Source: Actinoplanes sp. L3-i22 (GTDB lineage: Bacteria > Actinomycetota > Actinomycetes > Mycobacteriales > Micromonosporaceae). Taken from it: a stretch of DNA of 64,000 nucleotides. The notes under the pieces are model-generated. The model did not search any database, was not told the origin of the DNA, and worked only from the letters and a program-made list of their open reading frames with translations. Every line of letters begins with the position of its first letter. The stretch's first letter is position 1. A program made the position numbers and the translations under genes. This document shows, piece after piece, positions 8,310 to 64,000 of this stretch. The stretch is from positions 9,640,001 through 9,704,000 of the forward strand of contig NZ_AP024745.1 of the NCBI RefSeq assembly GCF_019704555.1, written 5' to 3'.

Positions 8310-8380
8310 GCGGGTAGAGCTTCGCCGCGACCTCGCGGCCGCTGATTTTTGGATTCGGTACGTGGTGAGCAGGCGGCCGA

Positions 8381-9322
8381 TCAGTGGGGGCTGATCGGGC
8401 GGGACGGGTCGGGGTGGGGGTCGATGCGGACAATCGTGCGGTCGACGTCCTGTGGTCGCGGCATCCGGCTGCCCGGCAGGCTGACCGCGGCCGCGCCCCA
8501 CGCCAGGCCCTCGACCAGCGCCGCCTCGCCGCACGCGCCGGCCGCGAGGAACCCGGCCAGCAGCGCGTCCCCGGCGCCGACCGTGCTGCGCGGATTGGTC
8601 ACCGGCGAGACGCCGGCCAGCACGCCGGACTCCTCGACCAGCACCGCGCCGTCCGCGCCGAGACTGGCCAGCACGGTCCCGGCGCCGGCCTTGCGCAGTT
8701 TCTCGCAGGCGTCCAGCACGTCGCCGAGCGTCCGCAGCTCGGTGCCGACCGCCTCGGCCAGCTCCTCCCGGTTCGGCTTGACCAGGGCGGCTCCGGCGTT
8801 GACCCCGGCGAGCAAGGCCGGGCCGCTGGAGTCGACGGCGAGCCGGGCGCCGGCCGCGACCAGCCGCTCGCAGAGCGCCGCGAACGCCGGCACCGACGGG
8901 CCCGGGGGCAGGCTGCCGCAGATCACCACCCAGTCGGCGGCTTTCGCGGCGGCCAGCACGGCGTCGCTGACCTGGTCGAACTCGGCGGTGGCGAGCACCG
9001 GGCCGGCTTCGTTGATCTTCGTGACCGTGCCGTCCGGCTCGGCCAGGGTGATGTTGGAACGGGTCCGCCCGGTGATCGGGACGGCCACCAGATCGACCCC
9101 CTCGCCCTTGAGGAGATCGACCAGCTGCTCGCCCTCGGCGCCGCCGGCCGGGACGACCGCGGTCGACCGGATGCCGTTGGCCAGCAGCGCGCGGGAGACG
9201 TTGACGCCCTTGCCGCCCGGGTCGATGTGCGAGTCCGCGGCGCGCAGGACCTGGCCGCGGACCAGCACGTCGACCTCCAGCGCGCGGTCCACGCTGGGGT
9301 TCAGGGTGACGGTGAGGATCAT
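8381..9322 (-). CDS. fruK: 1-phosphofructokinase (PfkB family)
   Basis: Phosphorylates fructose 1-phosphate to fructose 1,6-bisphosphate. The 313-residue protein opens with MILTVTLNPSVDRALEVD and has the substrate region DPGGKGVNVSRAL and the PfkB anion hole with catalytic Asp in STVGAGDALLAGF. ATG 9322 gives normal length. Upstream, in frame, are three more ATG codons in a 27-bp repeat, the first overlapping the stop of the DeoR gene as ATGA (9403), so a coupled start with a 27-residue extension is possible. It lies between the regulator and the PTS operon. Confidence 0.93.
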   Translation of the reverse strand: MILTVTLNPSVDRALEVDVLVRGQVLRAADSHIDPGGKGVNVSRALLANGIRSTAVVPAGGAEGEQLVDLLKGEGVDLVAVPITGRTRSNITLAEPDGTVTKINEAGPVLATAEFDQVSDAVLAAAKAADWVVICGSLPPGPSVPAFAALCERLVAAGARLAVDSSGPALLAGVNAGAALVKPNREELAEAVGTELRTLGDVLDACEKLRKAGAGTVLASLGADGAVLVEESGVLAGVSPVTNPRSTVGAGDALLAGFLAAGACGEAALVEGLAWGAAAVSLPGSRMPRPQDVDRTIVRIDPHPDPSRPISPH

Positions 9323-10794: not shown

Positions 10795-11454
10795 TCAGCG
10801 GTCCAGCGGCGGGAGGTAGGCCGGGAGGGTGAGGGTCTTGCGGATGGCGTTCTGGACCTCGTCGACCGGCGGGCGGCCGTCGACGTCGTGGACGACCTCT
10901 TTGCGCTGGAAGAGCTCGAGGACCGGCCGGGTCTTCTCGTGGTAGTCGCGCAGGCGCGCCTCGAGGGCCTCGGGGGTGTCGTCGGCGCGGGTGGTCAGCT
11001 CGTGGCCGCAGATGTCGCAGCGGCCCTCCTGCTCCGGGCGGTCGCCGATCAGGTTGTAGTCCATCCCGCAGTTCGGGCAGACGCGGCGGCTGAGCACCCG
11101 GCGGCGCACCTCGTCGTCGGGCAGCTCCAGGTGGATGACCGCGTCGATGTCGTAGCTCTCCATGAAGAACTCGGCCTGCCGGCCGTTGCGCGGGAAGCCG
11201 TCGATGATGAAGCCGTAGTTCCAGTCGTGCTGGTCCAGGCGCTCCCGGACGACCGACTCGACCAGCTCGTCACTGACCAGATCGCCGGCCGCCATGATCC
11301 GCCGGACCTGGGCGCCCATCTTCGTGTGGTTGCGGACGTGCCAGCGGAAGATGTCGCCGACGCCGATGTGGACGAGTTCGAGGTCCTGGGCGAGCAGCTG
11401 GGCCTGGGTGCCCTTGCCGCTGCCCTGAACTCCCATGATCACGTACTTGCGCAT
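10795..11454 (-). CDS. adenylate kinase-like nucleoside monophosphate kinase
   Basis: 219-residue P-loop kinase. It has GVQGSGKGT (8-16), the NMP-binding region with GDIFRWHVR, FIIDGFPRN, and a zinc-finger LID with CPNC and CDIC cysteine pairs. The main actinobacterial adk is normally in the ribosomal protein operon; this isolated copy is likely a paralogue, possibly with another nucleotide preference. The ATG is 21 nt upstream of nothing obvious; the next gene upstream (11476-12132) ends 21 nt away on the same strand, so the two may be co-transcribed. Confidence 0.85.
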   Translation of the reverse strand: MRKYVIMGVQGSGKGTQAQLLAQDLELVHIGVGDIFRWHVRNHTKMGAQVRRIMAAGDLVSDELVESVVRERLDQHDWNYGFIIDGFPRNGRQAEFFMESYDIDAVIHLELPDDEVRRRVLSRRVCPNCGMDYNLIGDRPEQEGRCDICGHELTTRADDTPEALEARLRDYHEKTRPVLELFQRKEVVHDVDGRPPVDEVQNAIRKTLTLPAYLPPLDR

Positions 11455-11475
11455 GAGCCGTGGCCTCTCGAGAGG

Positions 11476-12132
11476 TCAGTCCGCCGCGCCGATCCGGAGC
11501 GGGCCGGGTGCGGGACCGGTCAACGTGGTGGGATCGATGCTCCAGGCGCCGGCCACCCGGAACACGTCGCGCTCGGCGACCAGGACCGTGGACTCCTCCG
11601 GATCGAACTCGCCGGGCAGGCCGGCCTCCCGCTCGGCCGGGCCGGGCTCACCGAACCACGAGGTGACCTCGCCGGTCTGCCCGACATACCCGAACGCGCG
11701 CACGAGATCACCCTTCACCGCGCGCTGCCATCGATGCAACTCCGTTACCCGATGCGTGGCGAAGTACTGCACCTCGGTGCCGAGGGCCGCGGAGAGCCCG
11801 ACGATGTCCGGGATCGGGTTCAGCAGCAGGCGGCCGAACGCCAGGATCCAGGATGTGCCGCGGGCGCCGGGCAGCGGTGGGGTCACCGCCACCCGGTCGC
11901 CGTTGAGGTGGGCCAGGTCGAGGCCGTCGCGCCAGCGGATCGGGCCCAGGTCGCGCAGTTCGAGGGCGGCTAGGACGGCTTCCGGGCCGGGCTTCGCCTC
12001 GGTCTCCGGTTCGGTCTCCGCCTGGTGCTCCGCTTCGTTCCCCGCATCGTGCTTCGCTTCGTTCGCGGAGGAGACGGCGATCGCCAGCCATGCCTGTTTG
12101 CCGCCGAAACCCGCCATGACGTCCGTATCCAT
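11476..12132 (-). CDS. conserved-looking protein of unknown function
   Basis: 218-residue protein without signal peptide or membrane segment. After a Glu-rich stretch (about 24-48) it reads as a soluble domain rich in Trp, Gly and Pro with SWILAFGRLLLNPIPD and FGYVGQTGEVTSWFGEPG. I do not recognise the family. The ATG at 12132 lies 7 nt after TAGCGT on the minus strand, a likely -10 element, so the mRNA is probably leaderless; an inner ATG at 12117 is the alternative. The promoter overlaps the short gap to the PemK-like gene. Confidence 0.7.
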   Translation of the reverse strand: MDTDVMAGFGGKQAWLAIAVSSANEAKHDAGNEAEHQAETEPETEAKPGPEAVLAALELRDLGPIRWRDGLDLAHLNGDRVAVTPPLPGARGTSWILAFGRLLLNPIPDIVGLSAALGTEVQYFATHRVTELHRWQRAVKGDLVRAFGYVGQTGEVTSWFGEPGPAEREAGLPGEFDPEESTVLVAERDVFRVAGAWSIDPTTLTGPAPGPLRIGAAD

Positions 12133-57171: not shown

Positions 57172-57942
57172 CTATTGAGGCGCGGGTGGCTCCGGGTTGT
57201 CGTGCAGGACCCGCTGGACGACCGCGTAGACCTGCTCCGGGGTGAGGTAGTAGCGCTGGGCGATGGCGTTGACGTCGTGGCCGTCGGCGTATTCGGCGAC
57301 GATCGCGTCCTCGTTGGGGAACGGCTGCGGCGCGTATCCCTGCGGCGGGTAGCCCGGCGGCTGGTAGCCCGGCGGCGCATATCCGGGCGGGGCATATCCG
57401 GGCGGGGCATATCCCGGCGGGGCATATCCCGGCGGCGGGTAGCCCTGCGGCGGATAACTCTGCGGCGGGTAGGGACCCGGAGCCGGGGGCGGCGGGGCGT
57501 AACCCGGCTGCGGCGGCGCGTAGGGGTCCGGGGCAGGCGGCGGTGCGGCGTAGCCGGGCTGCGGCGGCGCGTAGGGGTCCGGGGCAGGCGGCGGTGCGGC
57601 GTAGCCGGGCTGCGGCGGCGCGTAGGGATCCGGAGCCGGAGGCGGTGGGGCGTAGCCGGGCTGCGGCGGGTAGGCGCCCGGTGCGGGCGGGGGCGCGTAA
57701 TAGCCCGGCGGCGGATAGCCGGGCGGCGCGCCATGACCAGCCGGGGGCGGGCCGTACCCGGCGGGCGGCGGACCGTACCCGGGCTGGGGCGCGGGCGGGC
57801 CGGGCGGACCGACCTCGCCCTGCACGACCGCGTAGACCTGGGCCACGGTCAGCCCGTAGCGCGCGGCGATCGCTTCCACGTCGTGACCGTCGCCGAACTC
57901 GGCGACGATGCGGTCCGCCCAGCTCGGCTCGGCCTCGGTCAT
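57172..57942 (-). CDS. proline-rich protein with a duplicated terminal module
   Basis: 256 residues. N-terminal module (about 8-40, RIVAEFGDGHDVEAIAARYG...VAQVYAVVQ) and C-terminal module (about 210-243, AIVAEYADGHDVNAIAQRYY...EQVYAVVQ) are copies of one another and look like helix-turn-helix units. Between them are about 165 residues of Pro/Gly/Tyr repeats: three near-identical DPYAPPQPGYA blocks and a run of (Y)APPGYAPPG. No signal peptide or membrane segment. ATG 57942 follows TAGTTT by 7 nt (leaderless). I know of no family with this arrangement; I have not searched. Confidence 0.7.
   Translation of the reverse strand: MTEAEPSWADRIVAEFGDGHDVEAIAARYGLTVAQVYAVVQGEVGPPGPPAPQPGYGPPPAGYGPPPAGHGAPPGYPPPGYYAPPPAPGAYPPQPGYAPPPPAPDPYAPPQPGYAAPPPAPDPYAPPQPGYAAPPPAPDPYAPPQPGYAPPPPAPGPYPPQSYPPQGYPPPGYAPPGYAPPGYAPPGYAPPGYQPPGYPPQGYAPQPFPNEDAIVAEYADGHDVNAIAQRYYLTPEQVYAVVQRVLHDNPEPPAPQ
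57340..57680. repeat. coding tandem repeats in the proline-rich gene
   Basis: Two repeat types alternate: an 18-bp unit (GGGGCATATCC(C/G)GGCGG type) repeated four to five times at about 57375-57430, and a 48-bp unit with GCGTAGGG(G/A)TCCGG(G/A)GC repeated three to four times at about 57515-57650. Copies are nearly identical, so they are recent. Confidence 0.85.
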
Positions 57943-58085
57943 ATTCGCCAAACTACCCGTCGCGCGCCACCCGCCACACCGAAGAAGGCGGGGCTGCCCC
58001 TGGGCGGACGAACGGGCGTTGTCCGCCGCGCCGGAAGGGGGCCGGGCTACCGCCGTACCGAAGAAAAAAGCGCAAGCGAAGCCGC
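57943..58085. other. 143-bp gap between proline-rich gene and dapE
   Basis: Holds the promoter of the proline-rich gene (TAGTTT, 57950-57955, minus strand) and the end of the dapE transcript. No gene or clear hairpin seen. Confidence 0.4.
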
Positions 58086-59144
58086 TCAGCTCAGCCAGGT
58101 CGTCAGATTGCGCAGAGCCACCCGAATCTCCGGAACCGGCACGAACTCCCCGTCCGTGTGGGCGAGCAGCGGGTCCCCGGGCCCGTAGTTCACCGCCGGA
58201 ATCCCGAGCGAGGCGAACCGGGACACGTCCGTCCACCCCAGCTTGGCCTGCGGCTCCCGCCCGACCAGCTCGACGAACTCCTTGGCGGCGGGCCGGTCGA
58301 GGCCGGGCCGGGCGCCGGGCGCGCGGTCGGTCACCTCGAGCTCGAAGCCGGCGAAGACCTCGCGCAGGTGGGCCTCGGCCTGGTCGGTGTCCCGGTCCGG
58401 CGCGAAACGGTAGTTGACGAAGATCGTGCAAAGATCCGGGATGACGTTGCCGGCGATCCCGCCCTCGATCTTCACCGCGTTCAGGCCCTCGTGGTACTGC
58501 AGACCGTCGACGATCGGCTGCCGGGGCACGTAGGCGCGCAGCACGTCGAGGACACCCCCGGCGCTGTGGATGGCGTTGCTGCCGCGCCAGGAGCGGGCGG
58601 CGTGCGCGGCGACCCCGGGCACGGTGATCTTGACGCGCATGGTGCCCTGGCAGCCGCCCTCGACGGTGCCGTCGGACGGCTCGCCGAGGATCGCGAAGTC
58701 ACCGGTCAGCCACTCCGGATGGTTGCGGACGAGCCGGCCGAGGCCGTTGAGCGCGGCGGCCACCTCCTCGTGGTCGTAGAAGACGTAGGTGACGTCGTAA
58801 CGCGGCTCGGTCAGCACGGCGGCGAGCTGGAGCATGACGGCGACGCCGGCCTTCATGTCGACGGTGCCGCGGCCGCGCAGCAGGTCCCCCTCCTCGACGA
58901 CCGGCAGGTTGTTCGCGATCGGGACGGTGTCCAGGTGGCCGGCGAGCACGACCCGGGTGGGGCGGCCCAGCGCGGTCCGGGCGACCACGGCGTCACCGTC
59001 GCGCAGCACCTCCAGGTGGGCGAACCCGCGCAGCGCGCTCTCCACGGCGTCGGCGAGCCGCTTCTCGTCGCCGCTGACCGACGGGATGTCACAGAGGGTG
59101 CGGGTGAGGGCGACCACGTCGCCGGTGAGATCGAGATCAGCCAT
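58086..59144 (-). CDS. dapE: succinyl-diaminopimelate desuccinylase
   Basis: 352-residue M20 metallopeptidase-family enzyme, lysine/DAP pathway. Metal ligands in [45 protein letters not shown] and the C-terminal AHTDGEFV. Length and the CQGTMR motif suit actinobacterial DapE; N-acetylornithine deacetylase is a less likely alternative despite the arginine genes nearby. ATG 59144 is 6 nt after TAATAT, so likely leaderless. Confidence 0.9.
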
Positions 59145-59262: not shown

Positions 59263-60693
59263 GTGCCGGAGAGTGACGAGCCGACCCGGCTCTGGGGTGC
59301 CCGTTTCGCCGGTGGCCCGGCGGAGGCCCTGGCCCGGCTGAGCGTCAGCGTCCAGTTCGACTGGCGTCTGGCGCCGTACGACCTGCTCGCCTCCCGCGCG
59401 CACGCCCGAGTGCTGGCGAACGCGGGCCTGCTGAACGCGGACGAGCTGGGCCGGATGCTGGCGGCGCTGGATGATCTGGAGTCGGCCTGCGCCACCGGCG
59501 AGTTCCGCCCGACGATCGAGGACGAGGACGTCCACACCGCCCTGGAGCGCGGCCTGCTGGAGCGCCTCGGCGCGCTCGGCGGCAAGCTGCGCGCCGGCCG
59601 GTCCCGCAACGACCAGGTCGCCACCGACCTGCGGCTCTACCTGCGCGACCACGCCCGCGGGGTGGCCGTCTCGCTGATCGAGCTGGCCGACGCGATCACC
59701 GAGCAGGCCGCCCGGAACGTGGACACCCCGGCACCCGGGATGACCCACCTGCAGCACGCCCAGCCGGTCAGTTTCGGTCACTGGCTGCTGGCCCACGTGC
59801 AGCCGCTGCTGCGCGATCTGGAGCGCCTGCGGGACTGGGACGTGCGGACCGCGATCAGCCCGCTCGGCTCCGGCGCGCTGGCCGGCTCGTCGCTGCCGCT
59901 GGACCCGGCCGCCGTCGCCAAGGAGCTGGGCTTCTCCGCCCCCGCGCCGAACTCGATGGACGCCGTGGCGGACCGGGACTTCGTCGCCGAGTTCCTGTTC
60001 ATCACCGCGCTGATCGGCGTGCACCTGTCCCGCCTCGGCGAGGAGATCGTCCTCTGGACCTCCACCGAGTTCGGCTGGGTGGAGCTGGACGACGCGTTCG
60101 CCACCGGCTCGTCGATCATGCCGCAGAAGAAGAACGCGGACATCGCCGAGCTGGCCCGGGGCAAGAGCGGCCGGCTCATCGGCGGCCTGGTCACGGTGCT
60201 GACCATGCTCAAGGGGCTGCCGCTCACCTACGACCGGGACATGCAGGAGGACAAGGAGCCGGCCTTCGACGCGGTCGACACCCTGGAGCTGCTGCTGCCC
60301 GCGCTGGCCGGGATGGTCTCCACGATGACGGTCCGGGTGGACCGGCTCGCGGCCGCCGCCCCGGTCGGCTTCTCGCTGGCCACCGAGGTCGCCGACTGGC
60401 TGGTCCGGCGCGGCGTCCCGTTCCGCGACGCGCACGAGATCACCGGCAAGCTGGTGGCGCTGTGCTCGGCGCGCGAGTGCGAGCTGGAGGACCTCACCGA
60501 CGAGGACCTGACCACGGTCAGCGACCACCTGGACCCGTCGGTCCGTGAGGTCCTCTCGGTCGCCTCGGCCCTCGCGGCCCGGACGACGCCGGGCTCGACC
60601 GGCCCGGGCCCGGTCCGTGAGCAGCTGGCCACGGTCCAGCACAAGCTCGACAACTGGCGCCAGTGGGCGGTGGAGAAGGTCGTCCCCCGCTAG
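59263..60693 (+). CDS. argH: argininosuccinate lyase
   Basis: 476 residues. Last step of arginine synthesis, cleaving argininosuccinate to arginine and fumarate. Signature GSSIMPQKKN (Ser283/284) and RSRNDQVATDLRLY, THLQHAQPVSFGHWLLA are all present. GTG start with GAGGAG 5 nt upstream. Convergent with the next unknown gene, 10 nt apart. Confidence 0.96.
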   Translation: MPESDEPTRLWGARFAGGPAEALARLSVSVQFDWRLAPYDLLASRAHARVLANAGLLNADELGRMLAALDDLESACATGEFRPTIEDEDVHTALERGLLERLGALGGKLRAGRSRNDQVATDLRLYLRDHARGVAVSLIELADAITEQAARNVDTPAPGMTHLQHAQPVSFGHWLLAHVQPLLRDLERLRDWDVRTAISPLGSGALAGSSLPLDPAAVAKELGFSAPAPNSMDAVADRDFVAEFLFITALIGVHLSRLGEEIVLWTSTEFGWVELDDAFATGSSIMPQKKNADIAELARGKSGRLIGGLVTVLTMLKGLPLTYDRDMQEDKEPAFDAVDTLELLLPALAGMVSTMTVRVDRLAAAAPVGFSLATEVADWLVRRGVPFRDAHEITGKLVALCSARECELEDLTDEDLTTVSDHLDPSVREVLSVASALAARTTPGSTGPGPVREQLATVQHKLDNWRQWAVEKVVPR

Positions 60694-60703
60694 GCGATCC
60701 CGC

Positions 60704-61639
60704 TCACCGGGCCAGCACCTGGCTGGTCCGGTGGGCCAGCTCGTCCAGCTCCGGGGAGCTCCCCCGCACGCCGCGGACCAGCTCGACCGCTTCCAGCAGG
60801 TATTCCAGGGCGACGACCTGCTCGTCGTACGGCTCGTCGTCCTCGAACTGGTCGAGCAGCAGCGCGAAGTCGGCCAGCATCGCCTCGGCCCGGTCGGCGG
60901 CCCGGTCGGGGTAACCGCCGCGCTGGATGGCTCGGGCCGACTCGACCATCGCCCGGCCGACGAAGACGTAGGACTGGCCCAGCAGCCCGGTGGCGATCCG
61001 CCCGGCCAGGCCGAACGCGCGCTCCTCGTTCCCCGGGTCGGGCAGCGCGCCGAACGCCGCGGCGATCTGCCGGGCGGCCGCGACCAGCACGACGCCGTCG
61101 GTCCACTCCGGGGTGCCCTCCGGCGCGCAAGGCAGATGTCCCAGCCCGGCGATCCGGGCCTCGGCCGTGACCGAGATCGCCGTCGCCGCGGCCACCAGGG
61201 AGCCCGGCTCCGGGGACGCGAGCGCCAGGCGCGTGGCCTCGACGGCCACCGCGACGTCCTCGGGCGGGTGCGGGGCCTCGCCACGGGCGGCCCGTTCCAG
61301 CAGGGCCACCGCGGCCGCCCGCTCCTCGGCGGACGGGCCGACCGGCTCGTCGTCGACCGGAAGGCCGAGTTCGAGCTGGTAGGACGTCCAGGCCAGCGGG
61401 TCCTTGTCGCGGTCCGGCTCATTCTCCGGGAGGCCGGACGAGGCGCGGACGACGCCGCCCTGGACCCGGTCCATCGCGAGCCGCGCGTCGTCGAACGGCA
61501 GCGCGAACCGCTCGGTCAGCACGGTCAGGACGTCGCGCCGGCTGGTTCCCCCGGCGTCGGCCGTGCGCAGGAACAGCACGAGCTCGCGCATCGTCGTCCC
61601 GCGGGCCAGGCGCACGGACATGTCATCGGTCCACTCCAC
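60704..61639 (-). CDS. helical soluble protein, unknown
   Basis: 311 residues. N-terminal part has MRELVLFLRTADAGGTSRRDVLTVLTERFALPFDDARLAMDRVQGGVV, the rest is Ala-rich helical (VAVAVEATRLALASPEPGSLVAAATAISV; VALEYLLEAVELVRGV). I do not recognise the family. The GTG at 61639 or ATG at 61621 could be the start; neither has a strong ribosome site. It lies between the convergent argH and argG genes. Confidence 0.65.
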   Translation of the reverse strand: MEWTDDMSVRLARGTTMRELVLFLRTADAGGTSRRDVLTVLTERFALPFDDARLAMDRVQGGVVRASSGLPENEPDRDKDPLAWTSYQLELGLPVDDEPVGPSAEERAAAVALLERAARGEAPHPPEDVAVAVEATRLALASPEPGSLVAAATAISVTAEARIAGLGHLPCAPEGTPEWTDGVVLVAAARQIAAAFGALPDPGNEERAFGLAGRIATGLLGQSYVFVGRAMVESARAIQRGGYPDRAADRAEAMLADFALLLDQFEDDEPYDEQVVALEYLLEAVELVRGVRGSSPELDELAHRTSQVLAR

Positions 61640-61706: not shown

Positions 61707-62945
61707 TCAGTCGGCCGGGTGGCCGGCGATCCGGGCGATGGTGCCGGGCATCGCGTACATGTGCGCGAACGCCCGCGCCTCCTCGCCGGTCCAGGCCGAC
61801 GAGCCGTGGCCGTAGACCACGCCCTGCCGGGTCGCGGCGTCCAGCAGGCTGTACGGGCTCCGGCTGCCCAGCAGCACGATGTTGCCCTTGTGCAGCCGGA
61901 CCCGCACGGTCCCGGAGACCCGGGTCTGGCTGGAATCCAGGAACGCCCGGAAGTCGTCCATGATCGGGTCGAAGTAGACGGCCTCGTGGAGCAGGTCGCC
62001 GTAGGTGTTCCCGAGCGTCGCCTTGGTCGCCTGCTGGCGGTTCGACAGCACGAGCTTCTCCAGCTCGCGGTGGGCCGCGATGAGGATCAGCATGCCGGGC
62101 GCCTCGAAGCCGACCCGGGCCAGGTTGCCGACCATCGTGGAGCCCATGTGGATGCCGCGGCCCACGCCGTGCTCGCCGCCGAGGACGTTGAGCGCGGAGA
62201 GGATCCCGTAGTTCGGGGCGTCGGCCGGCACGAGGGGCTCGCCGCCGTCCAGCGTCGCCGCGATGACCTGCCCCTTCTCGAACGTCAGCTGCAGCTCGAC
62301 GCCGCGGTCCGGGGCGTCGGCGATCGACTTCGTGTACGTCCAGGCGTCCTCGGGAAGATAATCCCAGCTCCCGTACGTCTCCTCGCCGCCGATCGAGGTC
62401 CCGATCAGCCCCTCGTTGATCGAGTACTTCTTGACCTTCTCGCTGACCGCGAAGCCCCGGGCACGCAGGAACTCCGCCTCCTCCTCGCGGACCAGGCGCT
62501 CGTCCCGGACCGGGGTGATGATCTCCAGGTGCGGGGCGAGCGCGCGGATCACCGCGTCGTAGCGGACGTGGTCGGCGCCGGCGCCGGTCGAGCCGTGCGC
62601 GATCCCGTCCGCGCCGACCCGCAGCGCGACCTCGACGACCTTCTCCGCCTGGATCAGGCGTTCCGCGCCGACGCACGACGGGTAGGCGCCGTTGCGCAGG
62701 TAGTTCGCCTTGATCGCGTAGGTGACGACGCGGTCGTACAGCTCGGCGCGCGCGTCGACCACGTGGTGCTCGAGCGCGCCCAGCTCGGCGGCGCGGGCCG
62801 CGACGGTCTCCGCCTCGCCGCTGTGCAGGCCGCCGGTGTCGATGTTGGCGGTCACCACGTCCCAGCCCTTCTCGCGGAAGTCCACGAGGGCGTACGAGGT
62901 GTCCAACCCACCGGAGAAGGCGAGAACGATCTTGCGCTTGGTCAT
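61707..62945 (-). CDS. argG: argininosuccinate synthase
   Basis: 412 residues. Condenses citrulline and aspartate with ATP. PP-loop AFSGGLDTSYALV, IDTGGLHSGE, GAYPSCVGAERL, HGSTGAGADHVRYD, SINEGLIGTSIGGEETYGSWDY and the C-terminal APNYGILSALNVLGGEHGVGRG region all fit. ATG 62945 overlaps the preceding unknown gene as ATGA. Confidence 0.95.
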   Translation of the reverse strand: MTKRKIVLAFSGGLDTSYALVDFREKGWDVVTANIDTGGLHSGEAETVAARAAELGALEHHVVDARAELYDRVVTYAIKANYLRNGAYPSCVGAERLIQAEKVVEVALRVGADGIAHGSTGAGADHVRYDAVIRALAPHLEIITPVRDERLVREEEAEFLRARGFAVSEKVKKYSINEGLIGTSIGGEETYGSWDYLPEDAWTYTKSIADAPDRGVELQLTFEKGQVIAATLDGGEPLVPADAPNYGILSALNVLGGEHGVGRGIHMGSTMVGNLARVGFEAPGMLILIAAHRELEKLVLSNRQQATKATLGNTYGDLLHEAVYFDPIMDDFRAFLDSSQTRVSGTVRVRLHKGNIVLLGSRSPYSLLDAATRQGVVYGHGSSAWTGEEARAFAHMYAMPGTIARIAGHPAD

Positions 62946-63838
62946 CGGGACAGTTCCTTCTCGAGAATCGGCACGTACGTCTTCCCGTCCCGGACGACGT
63001 GACCGGGCGGCAGGACGTGGAACTCGCTCCGGCCGGCCTCGATCGCCCGCTGCATCGCCTGCTGGCGGTCGTAGTCGAACGGGTCGAGCAGGAACGTCGG
63101 CTCCGGGTTCAGGAAACCGGCCGGGAGCGTCAGGTCGGACTGGTAGACGAACGAGCCGGGCGAGGTGTGGAACGGCACGGTCGCGACCAGCACCTTCAGC
63201 GCGCCGAACTCGGTGTGCACCTTGAGGGCGCTGTTGTCGTACTGGGTGACGCCGTCGAGCTTCTGCGCCCGGTACGCGGACAGGGCGAGCGCCTTGGCGG
63301 CCTTGCCCAGCCCGACCGCCGGCATCAGCGACCAGAGCGACCAGCCGACCCAGCGGCCCGGCTCGGCCGACGGGGCGGCGCAGTAGCCGCCGACCGGGAC
63401 CGGCCCGGTGTACCCGCTGGCCCGCATGTCGTCCTGGACCTTGCGCAGCAGCTGCTTGACGTCGGTGTCGAAGCGGAACGTGGACCGCTCCACCATCGCC
63501 GCGAACTCGTCCTGCGGCAGGCTGGCGATCAGCGCGGCGGCCGGCATCAGGATCAGGTCGACCATCACCCACTGCGGCATCGGGATGCCCCGGTCGCCGA
63601 ACGCGATGCCGTTGATCACGTTGAACAGGTTCAGGAACTCCCGGCACGACCAGTCGGCCTCGGTGGTGGCGGTGAAGTCCAGCCAGTTCAGCTTGTGGCC
63701 GTACGGCGTCTCGTTCAGGTGCGGGCGGACCGTCTCGTTGGAGGCGAGGAAGAACTCCACGCCGAGCCCGGCCAGCTTGCCGGTGTGGTCGGCGAAGTCC
63801 GGGAACCGGCTCTCCACCGAGGGCGGGAAGATGGTCAT
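62942..63838 (-). CDS. unknown protein translated between argR and argG
   Basis: 298 residues, soluble. Notable segments: [103 protein letters not shown], and [40 protein letters not shown] do not recognise it. Both its ends overlap neighbours by 4 nt as ATGA (63835-63838 and 62942-62945), so it is coupled to argR and argG and is probably co-regulated by arginine. Confidence 0.8.
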
Positions 63839-64000
63839 CGGTCCTCCAGGATGTTGGTGTCCGCCCGACTCCAGGTGTCGAGCTTGGCGGCCAGGGCGGC
63901 GCCCGACTCGGGCCCGTTGTCCCGGGCCACGACCAGGATCGTGTCGTCGCCGGCGATGGTCCCGACCACGTCCGAGAGCCCGGACCGGTCGAGCGCGCTG
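63835..64000 (-). CDS. argR: arginine repressor, C-terminal part (runs off the window)
   Basis: Minus-strand frame of 54 codons to the stop at 63835-63837: ...[21 protein letters not shown], then [20 protein letters not shown] and ...[18 protein letters not shown] is the core of the ArgR C-terminal, arginine-binding and hexamer domain (the GDD motif). The N-terminal DNA-binding domain lies beyond 64000. It is an incomplete gene only because the window ends. Confidence 0.85.

Follow-up and report, generated by a model that had tools for sequence, protein, structure and literature searches.

We examined a stretch of Actinoplanes sp. L3-i22 DNA (contig NZ_AP024745.1, positions 9,640,001 to 9,704,000; the whole 64,000 nucleotides are called the window here), in which an open reading frame (ORF) of 298 residues, named X below, lies between the arginine repressor gene argR and a divergent argininosuccinate synthase gene that we call argG' (product ArgG'). 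An earlier note on this DNA, made from the letters alone, had described 4-nt ATGA overlaps at both ends of X, and both can be read in the sequence: the argR stop and X start share positions 63835-63838, and the X stop and argG' start share 62942-62945. The operon of the source genome runs argC-argJ-argB-argD-argF-argR-X-argG' (argC and argJ were named from ORF reading, ArgJ also by TIGR00120). The order argB-argD-argF-argR-X-argG is identical in 30 of 30 named Actinoplanes-type loci, which upholds the coupling to arginine genes, and the tie to arginine synthesis, that the note had proposed. With gene starts chosen mechanically, the argR/X junction is -4 nt in 24 of these 30 loci, and that of X with argG is -4 nt in 16, -1 in seven and between 0 and 42 in the other seven. 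X is under purifying selection much like its neighbours (dN/dS, the ratio of nonsynonymous to synonymous rates, of 0.13-0.25 in all five pairs computed). The comparisons below make it very probable that X represents a new family with a GNAT (acetyltransferase) fold and is the constant companion of a divergent, transplanted ArgG.

X and the citrulline pocket of ArgG'

No match to X was found in Pfam, NCBIfam, PHROGs or PADLOC at E≤1, nor did any PDB sequence match an X profile of 21 rows, even at E≤10, and a Pfam search with six X relatives at E≤5 gave chance-level matches only; "unrecognised", the note's word for this protein, was apt. A protein search identified 132 relatives, and among the 120 matches listed all given names were hypothetical or uncharacterized. 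The GNAT fold was found for X and also for one distant relative; at the sequence level no Pfam GNAT model matches X, and X did not score over the cut-off of the short N-acetylglutamate synthase (NAGS) model NF005921 (0 NCBIfam families at E≤1). The acetyl-CoA loop of classical GNAT proteins reads Q/R-x-x-G-x-G/A, and its G-x-G/A portion is present in 120 of 123 X proteins, the window protein having Pro where Q/R stands. An hhalign comparison of X with the Bacteroidota GNAT that precedes argG (4-row versus 16-row alignment) was in register at the GLG loop with a probability of 1.65 and an E-value of 0.03; as this similarity is not significant, X is not supported as a close copy of the Bacteroidota ArgA2. 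A plasmid or viral origin of X was dropped, there being no match to X in the plasmid collection and no relatives in viral contigs scanned with X and with Bacteroidota ArgG. One further match to X, in genome G143 (E-value of 5e-4), was judged to be chance: by eye the region consists of fatty-acid genes, and a broader profile finds nothing in G143.

ArgG' scored over the cut-offs of PF00764 and PF20979 and reached 283.4 bits against TIGR00032 (cut-off 268.2), with two X-linked ArgG relatives falling just below the latter. Its best matches in the plasmid collection were Bacteroidota ArgGs (37-41%), and in a tree a clade supported at 100/100 united ArgG' with the ArgGs of Bacteroidota and Xanthomonas and left the canonical actinobacterial ArgGs outside; a long-branch warning for Xanthomonas and for G199, a distant small actinobacterial genome discussed below, leaves the place of the G199 ArgG' unsure. 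The part of PMC13289927 available to us lists Tyr87, Asn123, Arg127, Ser189, Glu191, Glu270 and Tyr282 as the residues of human argininosuccinate synthase that contact citrulline. Window ArgG' keeps Y87, R127 and S189, while A123, G191, G270 and F282 replace N123, E191, E270 and Y282; R95 is conserved in ArgG'. E270/K277/Y282, the canonical set, occurs in 27 of 28 ArgG loci of the phylum (L137 gave no usable match). In the six Bacteroidota and Xanthomonas ArgGs that we read, all taken from plasmid records that gave no match to X, E191, E270 and Y282 are absent, and D271 and K277 are present in every one. Among the 120 closest database relatives of ArgG' (61-100% identity; not each checked for X), 119 were readable: position 270 is always G, position 271 is S, Q, A or T, and position 277 is never K. 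Since 271 is never an acid in these proteins, and the G199 ArgG' has no D271, a nearby acid is absent from every X-linked enzyme read. Which group of citrulline each pocket residue holds is inferred.

Joint distribution of X and ArgG'

X was found in 46 of 354 Micromonosporaceae genomes, all within one genus-level group of 67, and a search of the family with the window ArgG at E≤1e-70 returned the identical 46 (for the 287 family genomes outside the genus, absence of ArgG' means no match at this threshold). The note had counted absence of X from the arg locus of close relatives against its own proposal, and taken literally such absence is what we observed, in 21 of the 67 congeners; however, these 21 also lack argG' and carry a different ArgG, so that the absence of X becomes evidence of partnership. 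In 13 of the 21 the argG is ~33-35% identical to that of the window, and the other eight have only a long type (~26-28%), elsewhere or in loci not read. All 13 X-free loci read have the order argF-argR-argG(canonical)-argH; in X-bearing loci it is argF-argR-X-argG', followed by a dapE-type gene and argH. ArgG' was the sole ArgG match in six of six X-bearing genomes of the group tested, and a tree of ArgF and ArgR from 30 X-bearing and 13 X-free genomes showed a single change of state. Loci L034-L065 duplicate many genomes of L001-L030, and counts were taken per single set.

A second case is G199, where the order is argG'-argH-X and the start of X overlaps the end of argH. Its congener G831, without X, carries a canonical argH and a long-type argG flanked by the two genes that also border the G199 locus (by eye, a Dop/PafA-like protein and a proteasomal AAA ATPase). 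The third setting lies among 151 relatives of Conexibacter sp. DBS9H8, where a search at E≤1e-75 returned ArgG' from four genomes; the search for X was confined to the surroundings of these four matches, and X stands directly upstream in all of them (three of the loci are in the genomes or contigs of L031-L033). In a sample of 396 genomes from the phylum ArgG' stands out in G000 and G199 only, both with confirmed X. Among the genomes examined, ArgG' was thus never seen without X, nor a confirmed X on its own. On this comparative evidence, which speaks to the partnership alone, we regard it as highly likely that X is a dedicated companion of ArgG', and the two appear to have replaced canonical ArgG together and in place at least twice in actinobacteria.

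The rest of the arginine pathway hardly differs between the two states. ArgF, ArgB and ArgD have no fixed differences between 31 X-bearing and 13 X-free loci, ArgH has three in 476 positions (30 versus 13 loci; two near the N-terminus) and ArgR four in 163, all in the last 21 residues, next to the swap. ArgJ scored over cut-off in all five genomes tested. Canonical short NAGS did so in 67 of 67 genomes of the genus, with and without X alike, and in none of four other genomes tested, again of both kinds (it fell under the cut-off in G199, Conexibacter and G924, and X-free G831 also lacks it). As the pathway is otherwise unchanged, the change concerns the ArgG step. The signature of the N-acetylcitrulline and N-succinylcitrulline pathways, in which an acylornithine carbamoyltransferase stands in for ArgF and ArgJ is missing, was not seen at X-bearing loci.

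Eight X-free genomes of the genus have a long, E. coli-like ArgG only (G402, G408, G409, G430, G440, G444, G457 and G462; loci L086-L093), and the long type is also present in eight of the 13 X-free genomes with canonical ArgG; the ArgG step is unusually changeable in the genus.

Table 1. Features at the argG' end of the window and their positions.
Feature	Position	Strand	Description	Basis
X	62942..63838	minus	298 residues, ATG start; unnamed family, GNAT acetyltransferase fold	ORF, fold, no family match
argG'	61707..62945	minus	divergent Bacteroidota-type argininosuccinate synthase, 412 residues	Pfam, TIGR00032, tree, pocket residues
argR (arginine repressor), 3' part	63835..64000	minus	gene runs past window edge	
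argH (argininosuccinate lyase)	59263..60693	plus	ordinary; inverted relative to argG' in this strain	TIGR00838, 561 bits
dapE-type M20 deacylase gene	58086..59144	minus	adjoins argH	TIGR01900, 520 bits (cut-off 304)

In the source strain argH lies past argG' on the opposite strand with the dapE-type M20 gene beside it (Table 1), and the two genes are also inverted together in L001, L002 and L030. A 311-residue ORF occupies window positions 60704-61639, between argG' and the inverted argH, and a long minus-strand ORF with proline-, tyrosine- and alanine-rich repeats (57172-58431) adjoins the dapE-type gene. In the Actinoplanes liguriensis draft (L030 8001-9110; G432 contig 102) X and argG' appear on separate pieces.

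A possible acylated-citrulline step and its alternatives

A GNAT travelling with an ArgG that is short of citrulline-pocket acids suggests that X neutralises the alpha-amino group of citrulline by acylation. X would use acetyl-CoA or another acyl-CoA for this purpose, ArgG', without acidic residues near that amino group, would condense the acylated citrulline with aspartate, and a hydrolase, possibly the M20 enzyme beside the locus, would take the acyl group off later. We give a probability of roughly 0.4 to the reading that X and ArgG' replaced canonical ArgG with citrulline acylation by X as the mechanism, the best single mechanism that the sequences suggest to us. The full, previously unrecorded route from citrulline to argininosuccinate, in which the GNAT acylates citrulline, the divergent ArgG joins N-acylcitrulline to aspartate and the acyl group is then removed, is a tentative proposal that we consider rather doubtful. 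As to the hydrolase, a dapE-type M20 gene accompanies the arg genes at 30 of 31 X-bearing loci (between argG' and argH in 26; the exception, L019, is cut by a contig end) and at none of 13 X-free loci, and PepT-like M20 genes, below the model's cut-off, lie near X-argG' in three of four Conexibacter-group genomes.

Several observations weigh against citrulline acylation. The M20 gene beside argH scores over cut-off as DapE and is on the opposite strand, a PepT-like gene is missing at L031, one of the four Conexibacter-group loci, and there is no M20 gene in the 17 kilobases read around the G199 locus; taken together these make the deacylation a guess, with the M20 enzyme only possibly a dedicated deacylase. 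X lacks the Q/R of the classical GNAT loop, six of the 119 readable ArgG' proteins retain N123, and the G199 ArgG' retains K277. Because ArgH is nearly unchanged, free argininosuccinate is still its likely substrate, and because the tree shows one change of state, the swap in the genus is one event and its 46 genomes are not 46 independent cases. In the portions of the papers available to us, acetylcitrulline in Xanthomonas is deacetylated by ArgE, i.e., before ArgG (PMC1865377), and for Bacteroides a citrulline desuccinylase is favoured as the most likely enzyme, again placing deacylation before ArgG (PMC7311316); if that order is right, free citrulline may well be what the Bacteroidota-type pocket accepts.

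Free citrulline would also be the substrate if X were a protein partner of ArgG', either a GNAT-fold subunit completing the citrulline site or an enzyme whose acetylation of ArgG' activates or regulates that protein. This possibility, which we hold to be real though on balance improbable, fits the strict co-occurrence of the two proteins, the 4-nt overlap that couples X and argG' in 16 of 30 loci and the near constancy of ArgH and the remaining pathway, and it requires no deacylase; however, the conserved acetyl-CoA loop suggests catalysis, which would be superfluous for a pure subunit, and the gene for X in G199 is coupled to argH instead of argG'. The earlier note had listed supplying substrate and scaffolding among several roles for X, and judged from sequence these may be regarded as the two leading ideas; its picture of an unrecognised, coupled, arginine-linked gene stands, while the divergence of the neighbouring argG and the GNAT fold of X were not visible to it.

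It is unlikely that X is a further NAGS for the first step, beside argG' only through a joint, Bacteroides-like argR-GNAT-argG segment. Such an origin would agree with the order argR-GNAT-argG-argC in Bacteroides and Parabacteroides and GNAT-argG-argC in two Cytophagales records, and the sections available to us of PMC7311316, PMC9026213 and PMC5317091 take the Bacteroidota-type GNAT (BT3761/ArgA2, Cabys_1732) to be an N-acylglutamate synthase; PMC4490483, likewise seen in part, describes NAGS genes as diverse, with one type fused to ArgH. The canonical short NAGS is also under cut-off in G199, Conexibacter and G924, but X-free G831 lacks it too, and within the genus all 67 genomes keep it whatever their X state, which weakens a plain NAGS substitution there. 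ArgJ is present in all five genomes tested, X has no significant profile similarity to the Bacteroidota GNAT, and it is tied to the type of argG; furthermore, a redundant NAGS should sometimes be lost, whereas X is present in every ArgG' genome examined. That same retention, together with purifying selection resembling that on its neighbours and the keeping of both X and argG' in G199 despite an altered gene order, makes it very unlikely that X is a passenger of a transferred segment, with an unrelated putative acyltransferase function and no role at the ArgG step, even though X has no known activity, one transfer could explain the 46 genomes of the genus, and the dapE-type gene rides along.

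Argininosuccinate synthase is a textbook one-protein step common to bacteria and the human urea cycle, and if X is needed for ArgG' function, the Actinoplanes group makes arginine with the help of a component that had gone unrecognised. Searches of an open-licence library on argininosuccinate synthase in Actinoplanes, on argG, argR and acetyltransferases in actinobacteria and on displacement of argG in Micromonosporaceae gave no paper whose title and abstract deal with the pairing of X and ArgG'. Should acylation of citrulline by X be correct, an acyl-protected second half of arginine synthesis would have been grafted onto an ordinary argJ/argF pathway, and one would have to ask whether acylated citrulline is a substrate of the Bacteroidota and Xanthomonas ArgGs as well, contrary to the sequence of steps given in the literature. 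The unusual citrulline pocket seen in Bacteroidota-type ArgGs also becomes a concrete question that can be put to the test.

Comparison with known arginine systems

Arginine operons of Bacteroidota, with the GNAT ArgA2 (BT3761 type) before argG (BT3760), and the argAGCBEH operon of Caldithrix likewise have an argG of the same type with a GNAT gene immediately in front of it, and in Bacteroides and Parabacteroides the pair follows argR, as at X loci. However, the Bacteroidota GNAT has ~190-230 residues and is regarded as an N-acylglutamate synthase, while X has 298 and no significant similarity to it, and the X pathway, unlike that of Bacteroidota, retains argJ and an ordinary argF, together with a NAGS of its own within the genus.

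The Xanthomonas operon argF'-argG-GNAT-argE-argB-GNAT-argC-argH also combines an ArgG of the wider type, without E270 and Y282, with GNAT genes beside argG; it differs in using acetylornithine carbamoyltransferase and argE, in an ArgG with D271 and K277, and in GNATs of 150 and 209 residues. A Xanthomonas arg-operon GNAT had no NAGS activity on testing, according to the portion of PMC1865377 available to us. In a plasmid-borne arg operon of Xanthomonas sacchari (L106) the GNAT genes lie at 8373-8825 and 11340-11969, one directly after argG, and the Xanthomonas pathway, as described in the text available, does not explain the role of either.

ArgG' shares with the canonical argininosuccinate synthase (TIGR00032, NF001770) both Pfam domains, the P-loop, T119, D124 and R127, and differs from it in changes at N123, E191, E270, Y282 and K121 and in the presence of X in every ArgG' genome examined. 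Short NAGS (NF005921) and ArgH-fused NAGS have the GNAT fold and the arginine pathway in common with X, which in G199 is translationally coupled to argH; X nevertheless has no NCBIfam match, is ~130 residues longer than the 170-position NF005921 model and coexists with NF005921 proteins in the genus.
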